Assembly: GCA_018287875.1 (NCBI GenBank)
Contig: JAGVVL010000015.1
Location: forward strand, 3,596,001 to 3,660,000
Length of the DNA stretch: 64,000 nt
From: Nigrospora sphaerica
Taxonomy: Eukaryota > Ascomycota > Sordariomycetes > Amphisphaeriales > Apiosporaceae
Direction of reading: 5' to 3'
The notes under the pieces are model-generated. The model saw nothing but the letters and a program-made list of their open reading frames with translations. It had not been told where the DNA came from and did no database searches. Shown one piece after another: positions 4,721 to 13,209 of the stretch (its first letter is position 1; every line of letters starts with the position of its first letter). The position numbers and the translations under genes were made by a program.

Positions 4721-5248
4721 ATGCAGTTTTACACCCTTATCATATCGGCCCTTGCCGCCACCGCTCTGGCCGCTCCCACCGAGCACAAGCCCACCACCAC
4801 CAAGGTGGCTTACCCCCCGGCTCACACCACCACCACTCAGGCGACTCACGCGCCGGCTCCTACCACCACCAAGTCTCCTTACCCTGGCGGTGGCAGTTAC
4901 AACCCGTGCAAGAGTGTGGTCTTTCAGAGCCTCCCCCGCTGCTGTGCCGTCAACGCTGCCGGCGTCGCCAGCCTTGACTGCGACCCTCGTAAGCTCTTCA
5001 ATCCTTGACTCACTAGCAAACGGTGTTAACATTTTCAACTTTAGCCTCCAAGGTTCCCACCAGCCCCGATGACTTCCGGGTCACCTGCAAGGCGACTGGT
5101 GCCAAAGCTCAATGCTGCACTCTTGACCTCGTATGTTTTCCTAATTGAACTAGCTAGCACTGTGAAGTTAGCAATGCGAGGTTCTAAAACTGACCTTTTC
5201 TTCTAGCTCGGCCAGGCTCTCCTCTGCTCGACGCCTGTCGGTCTCTAA
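4721..5248 (+). CDS. Class II hydrophobin with a Thr/Pro-rich N-terminal linker
   Basis: Three exons, 4721-4988, 5045-5130 and 5207-5248, encode 131 residues. Introns are GTAAGC..TTTAG (56 nt) and GTATGT..TCTAG (76 nt). The signal peptide is MQFYTLIISALAATALA. Residues about 20-65 are rich in Thr, Pro, Ala and His (TTTK, HTTTTQ, PTTTKSPYPGGG). The C-terminal 70 residues hold the eight cysteines in the hydrophobin order: NPC, RCC, LDC, VTC, QCC, LLC, ending LGQALLCSTPVGL. The spacing and the short ending fit class II hydrophobins, which are secreted and assemble at air-water and wall surfaces. The Thr/Pro linker is longer than in a minimal class II protein and may be O-glycosylated. The last exon is only 42 nt, so unspliced reading would miss the final cysteine. 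Confidence 0.9.
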
Positions 5249-5999: not shown

Positions 6000-6004
6000 G
6001 ATTC

Positions 6005-6203
6005 TGTCGCACTGAAGGAGGCGTGGGAAGCGAAAGGTTCAAGGTTATCCATTAGAAAGGACAAAAGAAAGTGCCAGAGATGGCAGACTATATACTCGTA
6101 GCTGGGGACCGCTCCCCACATGCTCCATAGGACCTACTGCAGGTACCAGTAGCTCCTCACGTGATCTCAGGGGCGAAACTAGTGATAGCCTCATATTGCC
6201 ACA
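6005..6203 (-). repeat. 3' LTR of the Copia element
   Basis: 199 bp, identical to 13006-13204 except A at 6047. Flanked on the left by GATTC (6000-6004). On the sense (minus) strand it contains a TATATAG box about 100 nt in. Confidence 0.93.
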
Positions 6204-6213
6204 CACCCCCTCA
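6204..6213 (-). promoter_or_regulatory. Polypurine tract of the Copia element
   Basis: On the minus strand the sequence next to the 3' LTR reads TGAGGGGGTG, the expected position and composition for the primer of plus-strand DNA synthesis. Confidence 0.65.
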
Positions 6214-6680
6214 GCGGACGTTCCATCGTTCGCTGACCCTCTGTTGGCCTCCTTTAGCTGCTTGTGCCGGTTCCCATGCGAGGGTTTAATTGTCCCTGCA
6301 GTTTTGGCTCGGTTAGTAGCTTGCCAGTCGTCCTGCAGAGCGTCAGTTGCGGTTCGATTGTCCTTAAGGTGAGGACAATGGCCAGTCCTCCCAGGCGACA
6401 TCATTATTCGAGATGCTATTGTTCGCGCTGGGTATTGAGCCTCAGAGGCTGCAGACAGCATTAATAGCTGGAGTCTGTCGCTGGCTGCGCCCGCGTTCCT
6501 GTTTCTTTTCTTATCCATCCCTAGATCGTCGTGCGTCTCCCCATCTGTTGTCTCGCCAGCTTCGTTGGCGACGGTGATGCTGACTGTCGCTCGTGAAGCC
6601 TTCTCGCGTGCGCGCACACACACACACATCCACCTCGCTGGTCGAGGTCTCTCCCATCCGACGCCATCACCACCACCACC

Positions 6681-7634
6681 ATGTCCGCCGGTCAGTATCT
6701 TCTCAGGACTTCTCCATAGCCGCCACTGACATCGTGTAGCTGTTTTGTCCTCTTCCGGTGGTCTGCCTCCTGGCGACGGCGGTGCAGGTAAGCCCCCTGG
6801 CCGCGGCCATGAGAAGGAGCGCGTGGAGGTCCCCTCTAGCAGCGACGACGAGTCCGACTCGGAGATCGCGCGCGCCAGGGAGCTCCTGCGCCGTCACAAC
6901 AAGAAGAAGCGTGCTGCCAAGGCTGCCGGCAAGCTCGACAAGCTCGCCGAGCGACGTTCCGAGGCCGCCCTGCGGCGCACCAAGGGGGCTGCTCGTTTCA
7001 CTCCGTGCGAGCAGTGCACGCTGTCGCTCCTGCGGGGCCCTCGTGGCCACTGCCATGGCACTGCTCTCGCAGGCAGCTCCCGGTGCTTTGATTGTGTACG
7101 CTATAATCACACGTATGTGGTCTCTCCTCTCAAGCTATAGACTTGGTGTTGACGTCTTCTGTAGCTGCAGAGAGCTCCCGGAGGCTGCGCGAGCTCTGGC
7201 TCGTCACCTCTTTCGGGCCTTTTTGCGCCCTGCAGATCAGTACCGCCAAGTGAGTGCCTTGACTATTGTCGCTCTGGATCCGTGCTGACAAGTTATAGGC
7301 GCTGGTCGATAATCTTCGCGTTACCGTGCGCATGCTTCTGGAGATCGCCAACATGGGCGACCACCATTCGTTGTCCGGTGTCGCTTCTGCCGCCCCCGCT
7401 GACGCTCCTCCCCCTTCCCCGGAGCCGGACACGCCGTCCGAGAGCACCCTTCGGGGCCGAAAGAAGATTAGCAAGAAGGGCAAGAAGGGAAAGGGCGTCG
7501 CTTCTGTCGACGTTGGCGCCGCCTCCATCGCTCACGAGGAGGCACGGGAGGCTAGCGAGTCGCTGGCCGACATCCTAGCCGACCTGTCGGACCTCGTGAG
7601 CGACGAGGTCGAGGGCGGCGAGGAGGAGGAGTAG
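6681..7634 (+). CDS. Intact spliced antisense gene carried inside the Copia element: Cys-rich coiled protein
   Basis: Four exons, 6681-6690, 6740-7112, 7165-7249 and 7299-7634, encode 267 residues with no internal stop. The three introns are 49, 52 and 49 nt and all begin GT and end AG. The leader is typical of a fungal gene, with a CACACACA run and CACCACC before the ATG. Residues about 30-90 are charged and helix-prone, with an acidic SSSDDESDSE patch followed by Arg/Lys repeats. Residues about 95-130 hold a putative zinc-binding cluster: PCEQC, then GHC, then RCFDC and NHTC, completed only by splicing exon 2 to exon 3. The C-terminal third has a Pro/Ala stretch, a basic KKISKKGKKGKG patch and an acidic end. 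A nuclear or nucleic-acid-binding role is possible but unproven. It runs opposite to pol and ends 197 nt from the pol stop. From memory, similar Cys-cluster hypothetical proteins recur in some Sordariomycete genomes; this needs a search. Confidence 0.75.
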
Positions 7635-7650
7635 AGGTGTAAGGCCTGTG

Positions 7651-7685
7651 GGGCGAAAGCCCGGATATCTTTTGTTGTTTCGCCC
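7651..7685. repeat. Inverted repeat behind the antisense gene
   Basis: GGGCGAAA (7651-7658) and TTTCGCCC (7678-7685) form an 8-bp perfect stem with a 19-nt loop just after the stop at 7634. It might help 3' end formation of either converging transcript; that is inference. Confidence 0.35.
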
Positions 7686-7830
7686 GTCAGGGCTGATACC
7701 CAGTGTTGCTTTGCACGTTTTGCCCGCCGCTGGTCGGTTAGGGGGGTGTCCCAGCTGGCTGGGCCCCCGGAATTGAACCGTCTTAACTCCCAACAGCCTT
7801 CTCCTGCTTCTCCGTTACCTATCGTATATC

Positions 7831-10800
7831 TTATAGGTTGAGAAGGGTCCTAAAGTGCTCAAACTTTGCCCTGCTTAGGTTCTTTGTTAATCCGTCGGCT
7901 GGCATGTCCTTTATAGCAAGATACGTCAGTTGGAACGCTCCTCGAGCGTATTCCTGGCGCAGCTATAAGTTATGGATGTCCACATAGCGTAGCTTGGTAG
8001 ATATCCTTTCGCTGCTACCGATCACGAGGCGAATCGTCTGCTGGTTATCGCAGGCTATGCTGAACGGAGTGTCCAAGACTAATTGGATATCTCTGAAAAG
8101 GCGCTTCAGGGCTACCGTTTCCTTTACTGCCTCACTGAGGGCCAGTAACTCGGCTTCAGTGGTAGAGGTGGTCACCGTAGCTTATCGGCTTGCTTTCCAA
8201 ACGACTGGTCCTCCGAATAGCTGGATGAGGTATCCCTAAGACGACTTCCTGGTGTCTGGATCGTCTACGAAGGATGCGTCCGTCGAAATCGCTATGGCTT
8301 AAGGAGCCGTCTGGTGTATCAATGGCTTCCCGTAGCGTATGGACACGAATCTCGTGCTATAGGCGTAGCGAATACACCAATCTGCCGCGTCTAAATGGTC
8401 TTGAGAGGGATTCGTCAGATGTCGAGATAGCTGCGAGGCTGCGTATGCCAAGTCCGGTCTGACCATAATAGCGCTATAGAGGATGCTTCCGACGCGCTCC
8501 TGAAAAGCCTGAATCCTGTGCTTCGGAGCCACCCCCGAGTGCGTCTTAAGTGGCATCTGCGGAAGCGGCGTCGCTGGGGTTCTCCCTTGGTGAAGATTGA
8601 AGTGTTTGGCGACCTTCTCGAGATAGGCGTCGTGGCATAGCCAAAGGAGACCGTCTTGTAGCTCGCGAACGACCCTAACACCAAGGTAGTAGTTGACTTC
8701 GCCTTGGTCCTTCAGCTCATACGCTCTTTTCAGCGCTTCAATGAGTCTTAGGGCTTCGTCTCGCTTATCAGGCCTGTTACAGACGAGAAAGTCATCCACG
8801 TAGAACACTATAAGGATGGTGCGCTCCTTATTGTGGTATAGGCATGGTTCCTCTGGAGAGGACCGAAGCCCGAGCTTCTCGAGGGTGCTTGAGAAGTCCC
8901 TGAACCATAGAAGAGGCGATTCTCGTAGCCCGTAAAGAGCCCTGAGAAGACGTAGGACGTAGCCCTCTCTTTTGTAGCCTGGTGGATACTCCACGTAGAT
9001 AGGCTCCGCGTCCTTGCTAAAAAGTGCGTTAAGAAAGGCGTTAACCACATCGAACTGTCGTACCTCATATCCGAAGCGCGCCACGATAGCCATCATGATC
9101 CTGAACGACCTGGCAGCTAGAGTAGCTGCGTAGGTGCTCTTAAGAGTGTTGACCATCTGCTTGTCGCCTCTAACGACGATCCTTGCCTTACATCGCAGGT
9201 GAACGTTATTCTCGTCATACTTGTCGGTGAAAACCCACTTTAAGGGCAGTGTGAAGAGGCCTGGCGTGCGACGTGCTAGTTTCCAGATCCCCATCTCGTC
9301 TGCCTTCTTGATCTCGAGCTTCGTAGCGTTCCTGAAGTCCTCTCCCCTGGGATGAGTAGCTAATTCACACCAGGAGCGTGGTGGTGAAGATAAAGTTCTC
9401 CCTTCTTCTTTGGAATCGCTCTCTGTTGCTCTTGATGACCGACACGCCGTAAAGATGCGCGCGTGAACAGTCCTGTGGAGAGAGTCCCCGTTCTGGAGGA
9501 CATCTTTCCCTGTGAGGAACGTCCCGAGGAGCGCATTGAGGTGATTAGTCTCCTGCACTTGTATCTCCTCGGGGGTGTATTGGACCGCTAGGAATGAGTT
9601 CTGCGTCCCGTCCCTCCTAATCCTGACTCTCCCGCTCCTCCTCAGTACTGTATCTGCTGAGGGGGTTGGCCGTGCGCGAGGTCTGCGGACTCTCTGAGGC
9701 TGTTCCCTCTGAGGTCCCTCTGACTCTGGTAGAGCCACTGTGATCGAATCGAGGATCCGATCCTGGTCTGGTGTAGCCCTTGAGGGCGCTTCGTCAGCTA
9801 TTCCCTGGCTTACACCTCCACTAGTCGCAGTTGATAGGACTTGTGGATCGCTGGCACCCTCTCCTGTAGTCCCAGGTCCTGGTGTGGACTCAGGTGTGAG
9901 GGGTGCAGCATGCGCATTCAGTCCGCCAGGCTCATGAGCACCTGACGAGCCTTCAGGAGCGACATCCACCCCCGAGTTCTTGTCAACTGGTCCCTCGGGA
10001 GCGTTGCCTTCCCCTAAGTTCCCAAGGTGAGCTTCTTGGGAGCTTTCAGGACGCAATGCTGTACCGACAATGTCATCTAGCTCCTCGAGCCTGTTCCAGA
10101 GCTGCAGTGTTTCATTTGTGAAGCCTGTCTCGCTTAAAGGGATATCTCCTGGCTCAACCTGTAGGTACTCTAGCGCCTCAGGGTCCAGCCGTTCTGACTC
10201 TCCTCCCTTATAGAACTGCGTTTCGTCGAATATGACGTCTCGCGTCTGAATGACCTTGCCGTGCTTTGGCAACCAGATTCTGTAGATATTGCTAGCGGCA
10301 TAGCCTACCAGATATCCTATCTGTGCCCTGTTTTGAACCTTAAACGCTCTACGGTCTGCCCCAACAGCGCGTCTTGGGTGAAAGGCGAAAGCCTTGCACC
10401 CGAAGACGTATATGCCGCTCTAGTCCGGTCGGAGGTCTGCCTGAGCCTCTCGCAGCTCCTGAGGGCTGTAGTGCGTCTAATTAAAAGAGAACCATTCGTT
10501 TAGCACCTCATTAAGGCTTCGGAAGCGCTGCAACTAAGCTGGGCTCATGTTGATGAGCTTCGTCGCAGCGGTGGTTGACTCTGGCCATAGCACCTCAGGG
10601 AGGCTAGCATGCGATAGCATTTTCAGGGATCGAACAATTATCTCCTGACCAGCTCTCTCAGGGCCTCCGTTCGGCTCGTGTATGTATAGGGGTGAGGTCT
10701 GAATCTCTATCCCTTCAGAATCTGCCCAGCGCTCGTATTCGGTCATGCCGTTGATCGCTATCACGCCCTTCTCTCCGTCGTGCTTTAGAACACAGAGGTG

Positions 10801-12846
10801 AAGGTTGTAGCGTCTTAGGACATGTCTCTCGAAGCTTCTGATGATCTTGAATAGCTGGGTATGGCTCTTCGAGGGCGTCGGAAAGGACCAAAGCTTGCCG
10901 CTGTAGTCGTCCTTCAGTACCAGTAGCCACTGGGAACCGTCGTATCCTCTGGGAAAATCGAACAAGTCCCAGAGGACCTTAAAGAACGGTCTTGAGGCTC
11001 TTTCCGTAGGCCGTCGGCTGACAACCTTACTGGCATGCGCCAATCTGCAGACTTCACATGTCCCCATGGGTTCACCCGCGATACCAACGTTCTTGCTTCG
11101 TTCTGGAAGCAACCTCAGAGCCGTCACACCAAGATGTCCAGTCCTGGCGTGCCACATAGCCTCTGAGTCCTTTCTCACTGCCGGTTTCTTAACCTGCACA
11201 TAGCCCGTAGGGGCTCTTCTCACGACTGCAAACGATCGAATCGTTCCTGGCTGTGCTGAGGGTGGTTGTGGAGCGATAGAGTAGGAGGAATAAAGGGGCT
11301 TGTATTCCATGAAGACTAGGTTGCCTATTCTTTGTAACTGCCGCACCACAGCACTGTTCGTGAGCGAACCGACCCTCAGTGTGCAGTCCTTGCCGCAGTA
11401 CCAGACACTTGCGTCGCATAGCAGGGACTCCGAGATGATATTGGTGTGGAAACCCTCGACCAAGTCCACGTTACGTAGCGTGAGGTCCAGCTTGACACCA
11501 CCAACACTAAGGAGTGCCCCCTTAATGACGCGTGTGCCGGTGCCTGTGATGCTAAAGGCCGAAGACCCGGCCTCCACCACCCTCCCAGGAGGTGCCGGAA
11601 CGAAGGATCCCTCCTGAAGCATGGAGATGTCGTTCACAATGTGAGATAACCCGCAACTGTCGACGACCGTGGATTGCGATAGCGTGTGAGGGCCCGTAAG
11701 CGACGCTACTGCCAGGTTGATGTGCGTATCCATCTGGAATAGCCTTGGATTGATGCCAACAGCTGAGACGTGACTCGTGAGTCCAGCCGAGGAGTTGTTG
11801 GTCCATCCTAGCTTGTCGAGCTCATTTCTGAGCGACTTCCACTTGTTGTCCTTTAGGCGCTCGAGGATCTTCCTGACCTCCGACTGTGGAATTGGGTTGA
11901 AGGCCCTACCGTCTTTGAGGGGGCCTGCAGAGCCCCTGACAGCGTATTCCAGTCTTCTGCAATCTGTGGGCCTCCACTTATGAGGCCATCTTAGATTGCA
12001 AGGGCACTTTGACTTTCCGCTAGCTGACGAGGAGTCTTGGTCTGCGATGCCGGTTCCGCCTAGCGTTGCGAACGATCGTTGTTTAACTCCTGGTAGCGTC
12101 CCAGAACTGACTTGCTCCATGAAGATGGCGCTCAGCTCGATTAGCTTCAGGGGCTCCTTGCCAGTGACTTCATCTGCAACGAAGTCGTCTAGTCGGTTCT
12201 GGGCCCACTGGGGAGCGAGTCGCTCCCCGATGGCCTTGAGGAATGTTTTGGCGGCCAGGTTGCCCTCCACCTCTGGTATCTTGTGGTTCTTGGCCAGCGC
12301 ATAGGCGGCTGTGAACTCCTGATGCCATGCTTCTGGAGCGACACCGCCTTTTGAAGCGCTTGCCAAGACCGCTTGGTAGCGTTCGCGAACAGCTGTCTTG
12401 ATAGAGGTGTCCGAGGGCTTGTACTGTTTCTTTAGCTCCTTGAGGACGTTCTGGAGCGACTTCTTCGTGTCTGGGCTTTTATCGATACGGCTGTGAGCAG
12501 CCTAGAGATACTCCTTCCTGACAGTGTTCTTGACCCACTGACTGAGAGCGATGTAGTGCTGTTGGAGAGCGTTCCAGTCGTTGATCATGGCGGAGTACGT
12601 CCTTAGTTCGCGTGCGTACGTGCGATCTGCAGCGTCAAGAGCTTTCGTGTTGTTCGTCTCGCTCTCTGGAGGGGCTCTGTAGATAGGCATCTTAGGGGGG
12701 TTCAGGAGGTATTCAGAGGTTGAGGCTTCAGGATCGATGTATGTCCAGATGCGTCGCTCCTTAGCGGCCATGCGAAGCTCATTGTACTATTCAGGCCAGT
12801 CGTATCTTGTGACAAGAGCGACCCGTTGGATCCTAAAGTCGGCCAT
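7831..12846 (-). pseudogene. Copia Gag-Pol polyprotein interrupted by nine nonsense codons
   Basis: From ATG at 12846 to TAA at 7831 there are exactly 1,672 codons in one frame with no frameshift. Visible parts in order: Gag with a CPC..HK..C cluster (about residue 281), protease-like VVDSCGLSH (about 395), integrase HHCC zinc site (WHARTGHLG and CEVC, about 565-600), integrase core with DLFDF, LKHDGEKG and NGGPE, reverse transcriptase with FYVDDF (about 1349), and RNase H with STDASF, TTEAEL and DNQ. Internal stops lie at 12787, 12502, 10534, 10477, 10420, 8299, 8236, 8182 and 7963 (lowest base of each): seven TAG, two TAA, no TGA. Each can be explained as CAG/CAA to TAG/TAA or TGG to TAG, which are CpA-to-TpA changes on one strand or the other. 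The copy cannot make a full polyprotein. Confidence 0.9.
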
Positions 12847-12987
12847 GGTGGACGTAGCTTGCCAGGCTGGCTGGACTGCTTTAGGGGATTTGAAAAGAGT
12901 TGGACAGTGAGAAAGGGGGTATAAGGTGATTTCCACGCTCTTCAGGCGTCCTGCGCAGCGTCTCTATTGTGAAGTAGAGGTATGCAT

Positions 12988-13005
12988 GCAAGCCGGGCTC
13001 ATAAC
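12988..13005 (-). promoter_or_regulatory. Primer-binding site matching the anticodon arm of initiator tRNA-Met
   Basis: The minus strand directly after the 5' LTR reads GTTATGAGCCCGGC. Its complement, GCCGGGCTCATAAC, matches the anticodon stem-loop of eukaryotic initiator tRNA-Met (CAU anticodon within CTCATAAC). Drosophila copia is known to prime from a half-molecule of that tRNA cut at the anticodon loop. The match to the tRNA is from memory. Confidence 0.7.
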
Positions 13006-13204
13006 TGTCGCACTGAAGGAGGCGTGGGAAGCGAAAGGTTCAAGGTTCTCCATTAGAAAGGACAAAAGAAAGTGCCAGAGATGGCAGACTATATACTCGT
13101 AGCTGGGGACCGCTCCCCACATGCTCCATAGGACCTACTGCAGGTACCAGTAGCTCCTCACGTGATCTCAGGGGCGAAACTAGTGATAGCCTCATATTGC
13201 CACA
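13006..13204 (-). repeat. 5' LTR of the Copia element
   Basis: 199 bp, followed on the right by the target duplication GATTC (13205-13209). It shares the C at offset 43 with the solo LTR at 55495-55693. Confidence 0.93.
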
Positions 13205-13209
13205 GATTC

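Follow-up and report, generated by a model that had tools for sequence, protein, structure and literature searches.

The window, by which we mean the whole 64,000-nucleotide stretch of Nigrospora sphaerica DNA analysed here, contains a complete Copia element at 6005-13204, and inside it lies a predicted spliced gene oriented opposite to gag-pol. This arrangement raises the question of where such a gene came from and whether it is maintained. A preliminary description proposed either capture of a host gene or a long-standing antisense accessory gene, and took the contrast between an intact gene and a decayed pol as a sign of selection or of recent acquisition.

Organization of the element and its antisense gene

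The features of the element are collected in Table 1. It belongs with the Ty1/Copia elements by its reverse transcriptase (RT), Pfam PF07727 matching pol with an E-value of 5e-37, by its 199-bp TG..CA LTRs, and by 5-bp target-site duplications, which were found in the window and in 10/10 family-A copies examined (family A being that of the window element). Upstream of the RT, Pfam gave GAG-pre-integrase and integrase-like matches with scores below their cut-offs. The purine-rich motif beside the 3' LTR we take to be the polypurine tract from what is generally known of LTR elements, and the candidate primer-binding site resembles the anticodon arm of initiator tRNA-Met, presumably as in half-tRNA priming; no tRNA genes were found in the window and three loci.

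Table 1. Coordinates of the Copia element and its antisense gene in the window.
Feature	Position	Strand	Remarks
Target-site duplication GATTC, left	6000..6004	.	
3' LTR	6005..6203	-	199 bp, TG..CA; element sense is the minus strand
Putative polypurine tract adjoining 3' LTR	6204..6215	-	motif common to families A, B, C and E
Upstream region of antisense gene	6216..6680	+	candidate promoter and 5' leader, by position
Exon 1	6681..6690	+	ATGTCCGCCG; end phase the same in families B and C
Intron 1	6691..6739	+	49 nt, phase 1, branch-like CTGAC
Exon 2	6740..7112	+	basic helix and five of the six cluster cysteines
Six-cysteine cluster	7006..7168	+	C-x2-C-x11-C-x10-C-x2-C-x6-C, interrupted by intron 2
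Intron 2	7113..7164	+	52 nt, phase 2; families A and B, not C
Exon 3	7165..7249	+	
Intron 3	7250..7298	+	49 nt, phase 0; families A, B and C
Exon 4	7299..7634	+	lysine-rich patch and acidic tail, stop TAG
Spacer	7635..7782	.	separates convergent ends of antisense gene and pol
gag-pol frame	7783..12846	-	INT before RT; eleven premature stops
Candidate primer-binding site	12985..13005	-	adjoins 5' LTR
5' LTR	13006..13204	-	199 bp; one difference from 3' LTR
Target-site duplication GATTC, right	13205..13209	.	

The gene model put forward earlier was confirmed in its coordinates (6681-7634), its strand (+), its three GT..AG introns (49, 52 and 49 nt) and its 267-codon frame, as was the CEQC / GHC / CFDC / HTC cluster, the HTC of which straddles intron 2. 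Its account of pol needs correction in two respects. The frame had been said to end at 7831, but the 11 copies compared all have CAA at codon 7833 and CAG at codon 7821, and in each of them the natural stop lies at 7783-7785. Instead of the nine Gag-Pol stops counted before, eleven premature stops interrupt pol in the window copy (12789, 12504, 10536, 10479, 10422, 8301, 8238, 8184, 7965, 7833 and 7821), four of them shared with one other copy (L019) and absent from the remaining copies where covered.

The six cysteines (spacing 2-11-10-2-6) and three histidines are invariant across the proteins of the three families that carry the gene (see below). In Pfam no family fits the antisense protein, and among solved structures nothing convincing was found. 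A single-sequence fold of exon 2, extended into intron 2, gave a mean pLDDT of 58, with a helix at 38-81 and little else. By its composition the protein would comprise a basic helical part and the cysteine cluster, with an acidic tail in families A and B. The cluster pattern suggests metal binding, and composition and cysteine pattern together point to a probably nuclear, nucleic-acid-binding protein.

Near the element, at 4721-5008 (+), we observed an ORF beginning MQFYTLIISALAATALAAP and containing a QSLPRCCAVNAAGVASLDC stretch, a pattern which we take to be like that of class II hydrophobins.

Copies of the element and transposition with introns

DNA searches of the 51.6 Mb genome revealed 16 near-full-length copies of the gene, the window included, at 88-100% identity. 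Each of the 15 non-window copies has element LTR and pol next to it, truncated or interrupted in some cases, and all 16 hold intron intervals of 49, 52 and 49 nt. Among them, 47/48 donors are GT and 46/48 acceptors AG; the three exceptions, all G>A, belong to L019 and L023, both with a stop-rich pol. Two further family-A loci (L046 and L047) are truncated inside pol and lack the gene.

Target-site duplications match in 11/11 full-length copies (the window and ten others) and comprise nine different sequences. Nine of the ten non-window full-length copies have two identical LTRs, the tenth showing a one-base length difference. Since the three introns are present in every one of these copies, across nine different duplications, the earlier proposal that antisense introns can survive transposition is supported. 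Such repeated transposition with introns is as expected if only RNA of the opposite polarity is copied.

CGAAA flanks each of L014, L015 and L017, which are all nested in another LTR of this family; the pattern looks like a single nested insertion copied along with the surrounding sequence. In L016, about 210 bp (7617-7829) of extra sequence lie between the 3' LTR and the gene, and the target-site duplication matches.

Homologs in other element families

A protein search of the genome gave 105 matches, which were grouped into 43 clusters. With Copia RT lists that make the pairing counts lower bounds, an RT match was found within 9 kb of 33/43 clusters and within 4 kb of 32; in 33/33 of the paired clusters the antisense match lies 3' of the RT and runs opposite to it. 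Of the ten clusters with no RT within 9 kb, nine were read (C33:2472573, E 0.08, being set aside), and eight of these hold LTR, pol or neighbouring element sequence and are copies or relics. The ninth, L041, shows no visible pol or LTR in 3.4 kb. It carries at about 1310-1700, on the reverse strand, a short diverged relic of the gene in which intron 2 is not recognisable.

Homologs antisense between RNase H and an LTR, which the preliminary description had proposed to look for, thus recur in divergent Copia families. The three families carrying the gene (A, B and C) are 74-81% identical in pol, and in each the gene adjoins the LTR end and the polypurine motif. The family B protein (L026) is 282 residues long, and its gene has three introns (51, 52 and 53 nt); that of family C (L029, L030 and L037) is 221 residues long, and its gene has two introns (58 and 54 nt), with a clean junction at the site of intron 2 and intron 3 retained. 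Intact models were obtained at 1/6 B loci and 3/10 C loci, the remaining loci having frameshifts or stops or standing without a model. Intron 1 (phase 1) and intron 3 (phase 0) occupy the same positions in A, B and C, and intron 2 does so in A and B; the intron sequences of A and B are only 40-63% alike. A short stretch beside the ATG, within the upstream region, resembles family B, and the antisense protein of A is 47% identical to that of B and 43% identical to that of C. In family C, the L029 frame continues for about 50 codons beyond its TAG stop (about 1966-2118), and L031 has the same TAG.

Thirty-five RT places have no antisense partner, although one (C9:3547521) belongs to the paired element L013; from the other 34, nine were examined (L043-L051). 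Apart from L046 and L047, the gene-less loci are the three of family E and two old loci, L050 (near B) and L049 (near C). In family E, the gene is missing from three of three loci (L043, L048 and L051), where the polypurine tract and the LTR follow pol within about 100 bp. At L049, which is nearest C at 95%, the match ends just after pol.

History of the gene

Identities in pol (INT, RT and RNase H pieces) are 80.5% for A-B, 73.7% for A-C and 84.8% for C-E. The pol tree has the form ((A1,A2),B),(C,E), where A1 and A2 are divisions of family A, with support of 97/97 for A+B and of 93/95 for C+E, the latter just under the 95 mark in a tree with a long-branched outgroup; an earlier tree from less sequence left the families unresolved. 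Family E is probably the sister of C. Because E groups with C and lacks the gene, either loss or transfer is needed, and the simplest account, an old gain and a later loss, suggests that the gene was present in the common ancestor and lost in E. Diverged homologs occupying the same position in distinct Copia families favour the long-standing accessory gene over the recent acquisition that had been considered alongside it.

Alternatively, the gene may have moved between families by recombination of elements, E never having had it, which we regard as the less likely account but as a serious one. Such transfer would account for a gene-less E beside C, and the shared polypurine and LTR ends would aid template switching. 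However, divergence of the gene is ordered like that of pol, A-B being closer than A-C (47% vs 43%, a small step), and losses do occur: in L050 (1191-1219), an old locus with pol nearest B, the end of pol is followed almost directly by a remnant of the leader close to the LTR. Since L050 keeps that partial leader and lacks the gene stretch, loss of the gene is possible in principle.

The absence of intron 2 from family C can be read in two ways. One, which we think unlikely, is that a spliced antisense message was reverse-transcribed by the element machinery and recombined back; the other is a gain of the intron in the A/B stem. On the first reading, the introns would act as a natural marker of polarity for the element. 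Survival of introns in A and B indicates that sense RNA was the template there, and, if reverse transcription is the right reading, the clean absence of intron 2 in C would make the antisense mRNA a real substrate.

Frame integrity of the assembled copies

By projection, the frame is open throughout in 2/16 copies, the window and L019, and L019 has lost one donor. In 14/16 copies it is broken as assembled, 13 times by indels and in L023 by stops. The non-window copies contain 43 indels, all of them deletions, 33 of which fall in runs of at least four equal bases. Ten copies were compared with the window run by run, L018 being left out as truncated. The share of runs missing a base was 0.04% for length 1, 0% for 2, 0.7% for 3, 2.9% for 4, 27% for 5 and 75% for 6, in counts where deletions may be shared by descent and a surplus base in the window would register in the same way. 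The run-length effect is present alike in the gene, in pol and in non-coding sequence, and such homopolymer deletions are what long-read sequencing error would give, although the argument for error is indirect.

It is also conceivable, but rather improbable in our judgement, that the deletions are true ones and that a real gene is decaying in an active family, its young copies spreading without it. A deletion at 6984 in nine of the ten copies scored would fit this, as would the existence of a gene-less related family. Yet the missing-base share climbs with run length to its maximum in pol and non-coding sequence as well, and positions 6793 and 6984 are hit in both A1 and A2, each of which has deletion-free copies too.

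Selection and probable repeat-induced point mutation

The comparison of dN/dS among copies that had been suggested was carried out between L010 (A1) and L020 (A2) and gave 0.18 for the gene (dS 0.162, dN 0.030). Changes at the three codon positions number 9, 9 and 30, and 18 amino-acid changes were seen vs 31-33 expected, none of 5000 simulations that preserve the kinds of change being that low. Differing sites amount to 11/123 in the introns and 48/799 in the exons. The same simulation test applied to L010 with L023, L019 or the window showed no departure from expectation. Between families, dN/dS is 0.40-0.57 at a dS of 1.0-1.8. A value of 0.145 for pol was not used as evidence, the start of its ORF being apparently in another frame.

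Selection on the gene is therefore upheld by the comparison of L010 with L020, but not by the contrast in decay from which it was originally argued, because the pol stops look like the result of repeat-induced point mutation (RIP) and the gene is poor in codons that RIP turns into stops. Against 11 copies, the window copy has 88 private differences, of which 46 are C>T and 35 G>A (81/88), 53 of these 81 in CpA/TpG context; 10/88 fall in the gene and 74/88 in two pol segments. At each of the eleven premature pol stops, most other copies read CAG, CAA or TGG. The RIP signature, like the short introns, suggests a filamentous fungus. In the L010 gene, 6/534 C>T/G>A sites would make a stop (3/90 at CpA/TpG), as would 47/1088 (34/241 at CpA/TpG) in the RT frame of L015. 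The nine coding changes of the window copy leave no stop in 65-86% of simulation runs. An intact cargo beside a ruined pol can thus arise from RIP and codon content alone, a caution for reading such contrasts. Window positions 6005-6680 (3' LTR and leader) hold zero private differences vs 84/88 in the gene and pol.

That there is no gene at all, the splicing being a chance construction over a GC-rich spacer and the antisense RNA or the DNA being what matters, we hold to be quite improbable. A loose search of the window did find 87 three-intron solutions that leave a frame open, and most other copies are frameshifted as assembled. Chance would, however, hardly yield the excess of third-position changes and the low dN/dS between L010 and L020, nor the phase-true introns in other families and the invariant cysteines.

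Search for a host donor

Genome searches with two proteins gave no clear homolog outside elements, the weak matches C1:3958808 and C9:2911513 being left unread, so the suggested capture is not borne out for a host gene still present in this genome and the gene has no clear donor copy of the kind expected of a transduced host gene. A one-off capture was rejected given that the antisense arrangement is repeated across the genome and the families. That a single element recently captured a host gene, which was then amplified along with it, is very improbable: the introns are typical of host genes and the family-A copies are young, but two more families (74-81% pol identity) hold diverged homologs at the same place, eight of the nine RT-less clusters read are element copies or relics, and the two-protein searches returned no convincing host gene.

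Comparison with known systems

Antisense passenger genes are already known from other LTR elements, and the present gene looks like an unusually clear example. For the plant element Grande, an antisense transcript from its own promoter has been shown. The plant antisense genes termed aORF-3R, namely Grande gene23, RIRE2, Retand ORF4 and PvRetro13, are described in PMC7264820 and PMC11963269 as antisense, placed after pol and before the 3' LTR, and present in most copies of a family, with no known host donor and with nuclear or DNA-binding roles suggested. The likeness in layout to these genes, which had been pointed out before, holds for the position between pol and the 3' LTR (PMC7264820), and here too the gene lies there in most copies of A, B and C. 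The plant genes differ in being carried by plant elements, Retand being Gypsy, whereas the present one belongs to a Copia element of a fungus, is interrupted by as many as three conserved introns, and encodes a cysteine cluster matching no Pfam family; the word intron is absent from the main text of PMC11963269.

Among fungal LTR elements, an additional antisense gene, brtn, is reported for Boty / BcGypsy1 of Botrytis (by the title of Zhao et al. 2011, as cited in PMC8365987), and Boty is also named in PMC7264820. By its description brtn is likewise antisense in a fungal element, but BcGypsy1 is Gypsy by name and the present one is Copia. A parallel in layout only is HBZ of HTLV-1, which is a bZIP protein; no Pfam bZIP match is listed for the antisense protein here. 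HBZ is treated in PMC11963269 as an antisense-encoded nuclear regulator of an LTR element.

With the fungal Zn2Cys6 proteins our protein shares the six-cysteine order C-x2-C ... C ... C-x2-C-x6-C. The spacing in Zn2Cys6 (PF00172) is 2-6-(5 to 12)-2-(6 to 8), with a usual second gap of 6; the gap here is 11 (2-11-10-2-6), which places the protein outside this family. PF00172 is not listed for it at E-values up to 10, in a search whose filters drop most weak matches.

In the literature searched, antisense genes with introns were not found for any fungal Copia element, and the main text of a survey of ascomycete Copia elements never uses the word 'antisense' (PMC5445492). What looks new is the combination of a fungal Copia lineage, an antisense gene with introns whose positions agree between families, and a relative that lacks the gene.

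Proposed role and significance

We consider it probable that the gene is an old accessory gene with its own antisense transcript, spliced by the host and likely encoding a nuclear nucleic-acid binder which tunes its Copia family and is dispensable. Transcription would be by host RNA polymerase II, starting at a promoter of the gene itself within the element, and the introns would be removed by the host spliceosome. Since the genomic RNA of the element is, by its anatomy, of opposite polarity, the introns stay unspliced there, and they have passed through many rounds of transposition. The basic helical, six-cysteine product may enter the nucleus, bind nucleic acid, and tune expression or integration of its own element family, which would agree with the roles suggested for the plant antisense ORFs (PMC7264820, PMC11963269). 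It probably helps the lineage but is not indispensable to it, because the related family E lacks the gene.

Although LTR elements are known to carry antisense genes, these are poorly understood. A single genome here holds pol-related families with three introns, with two introns and with no gene. The introns make an antisense transcript recognisable by its splices, so that expression would be directly testable in stranded RNA data, and the gene-less family provides a natural comparison for the role of the gene.
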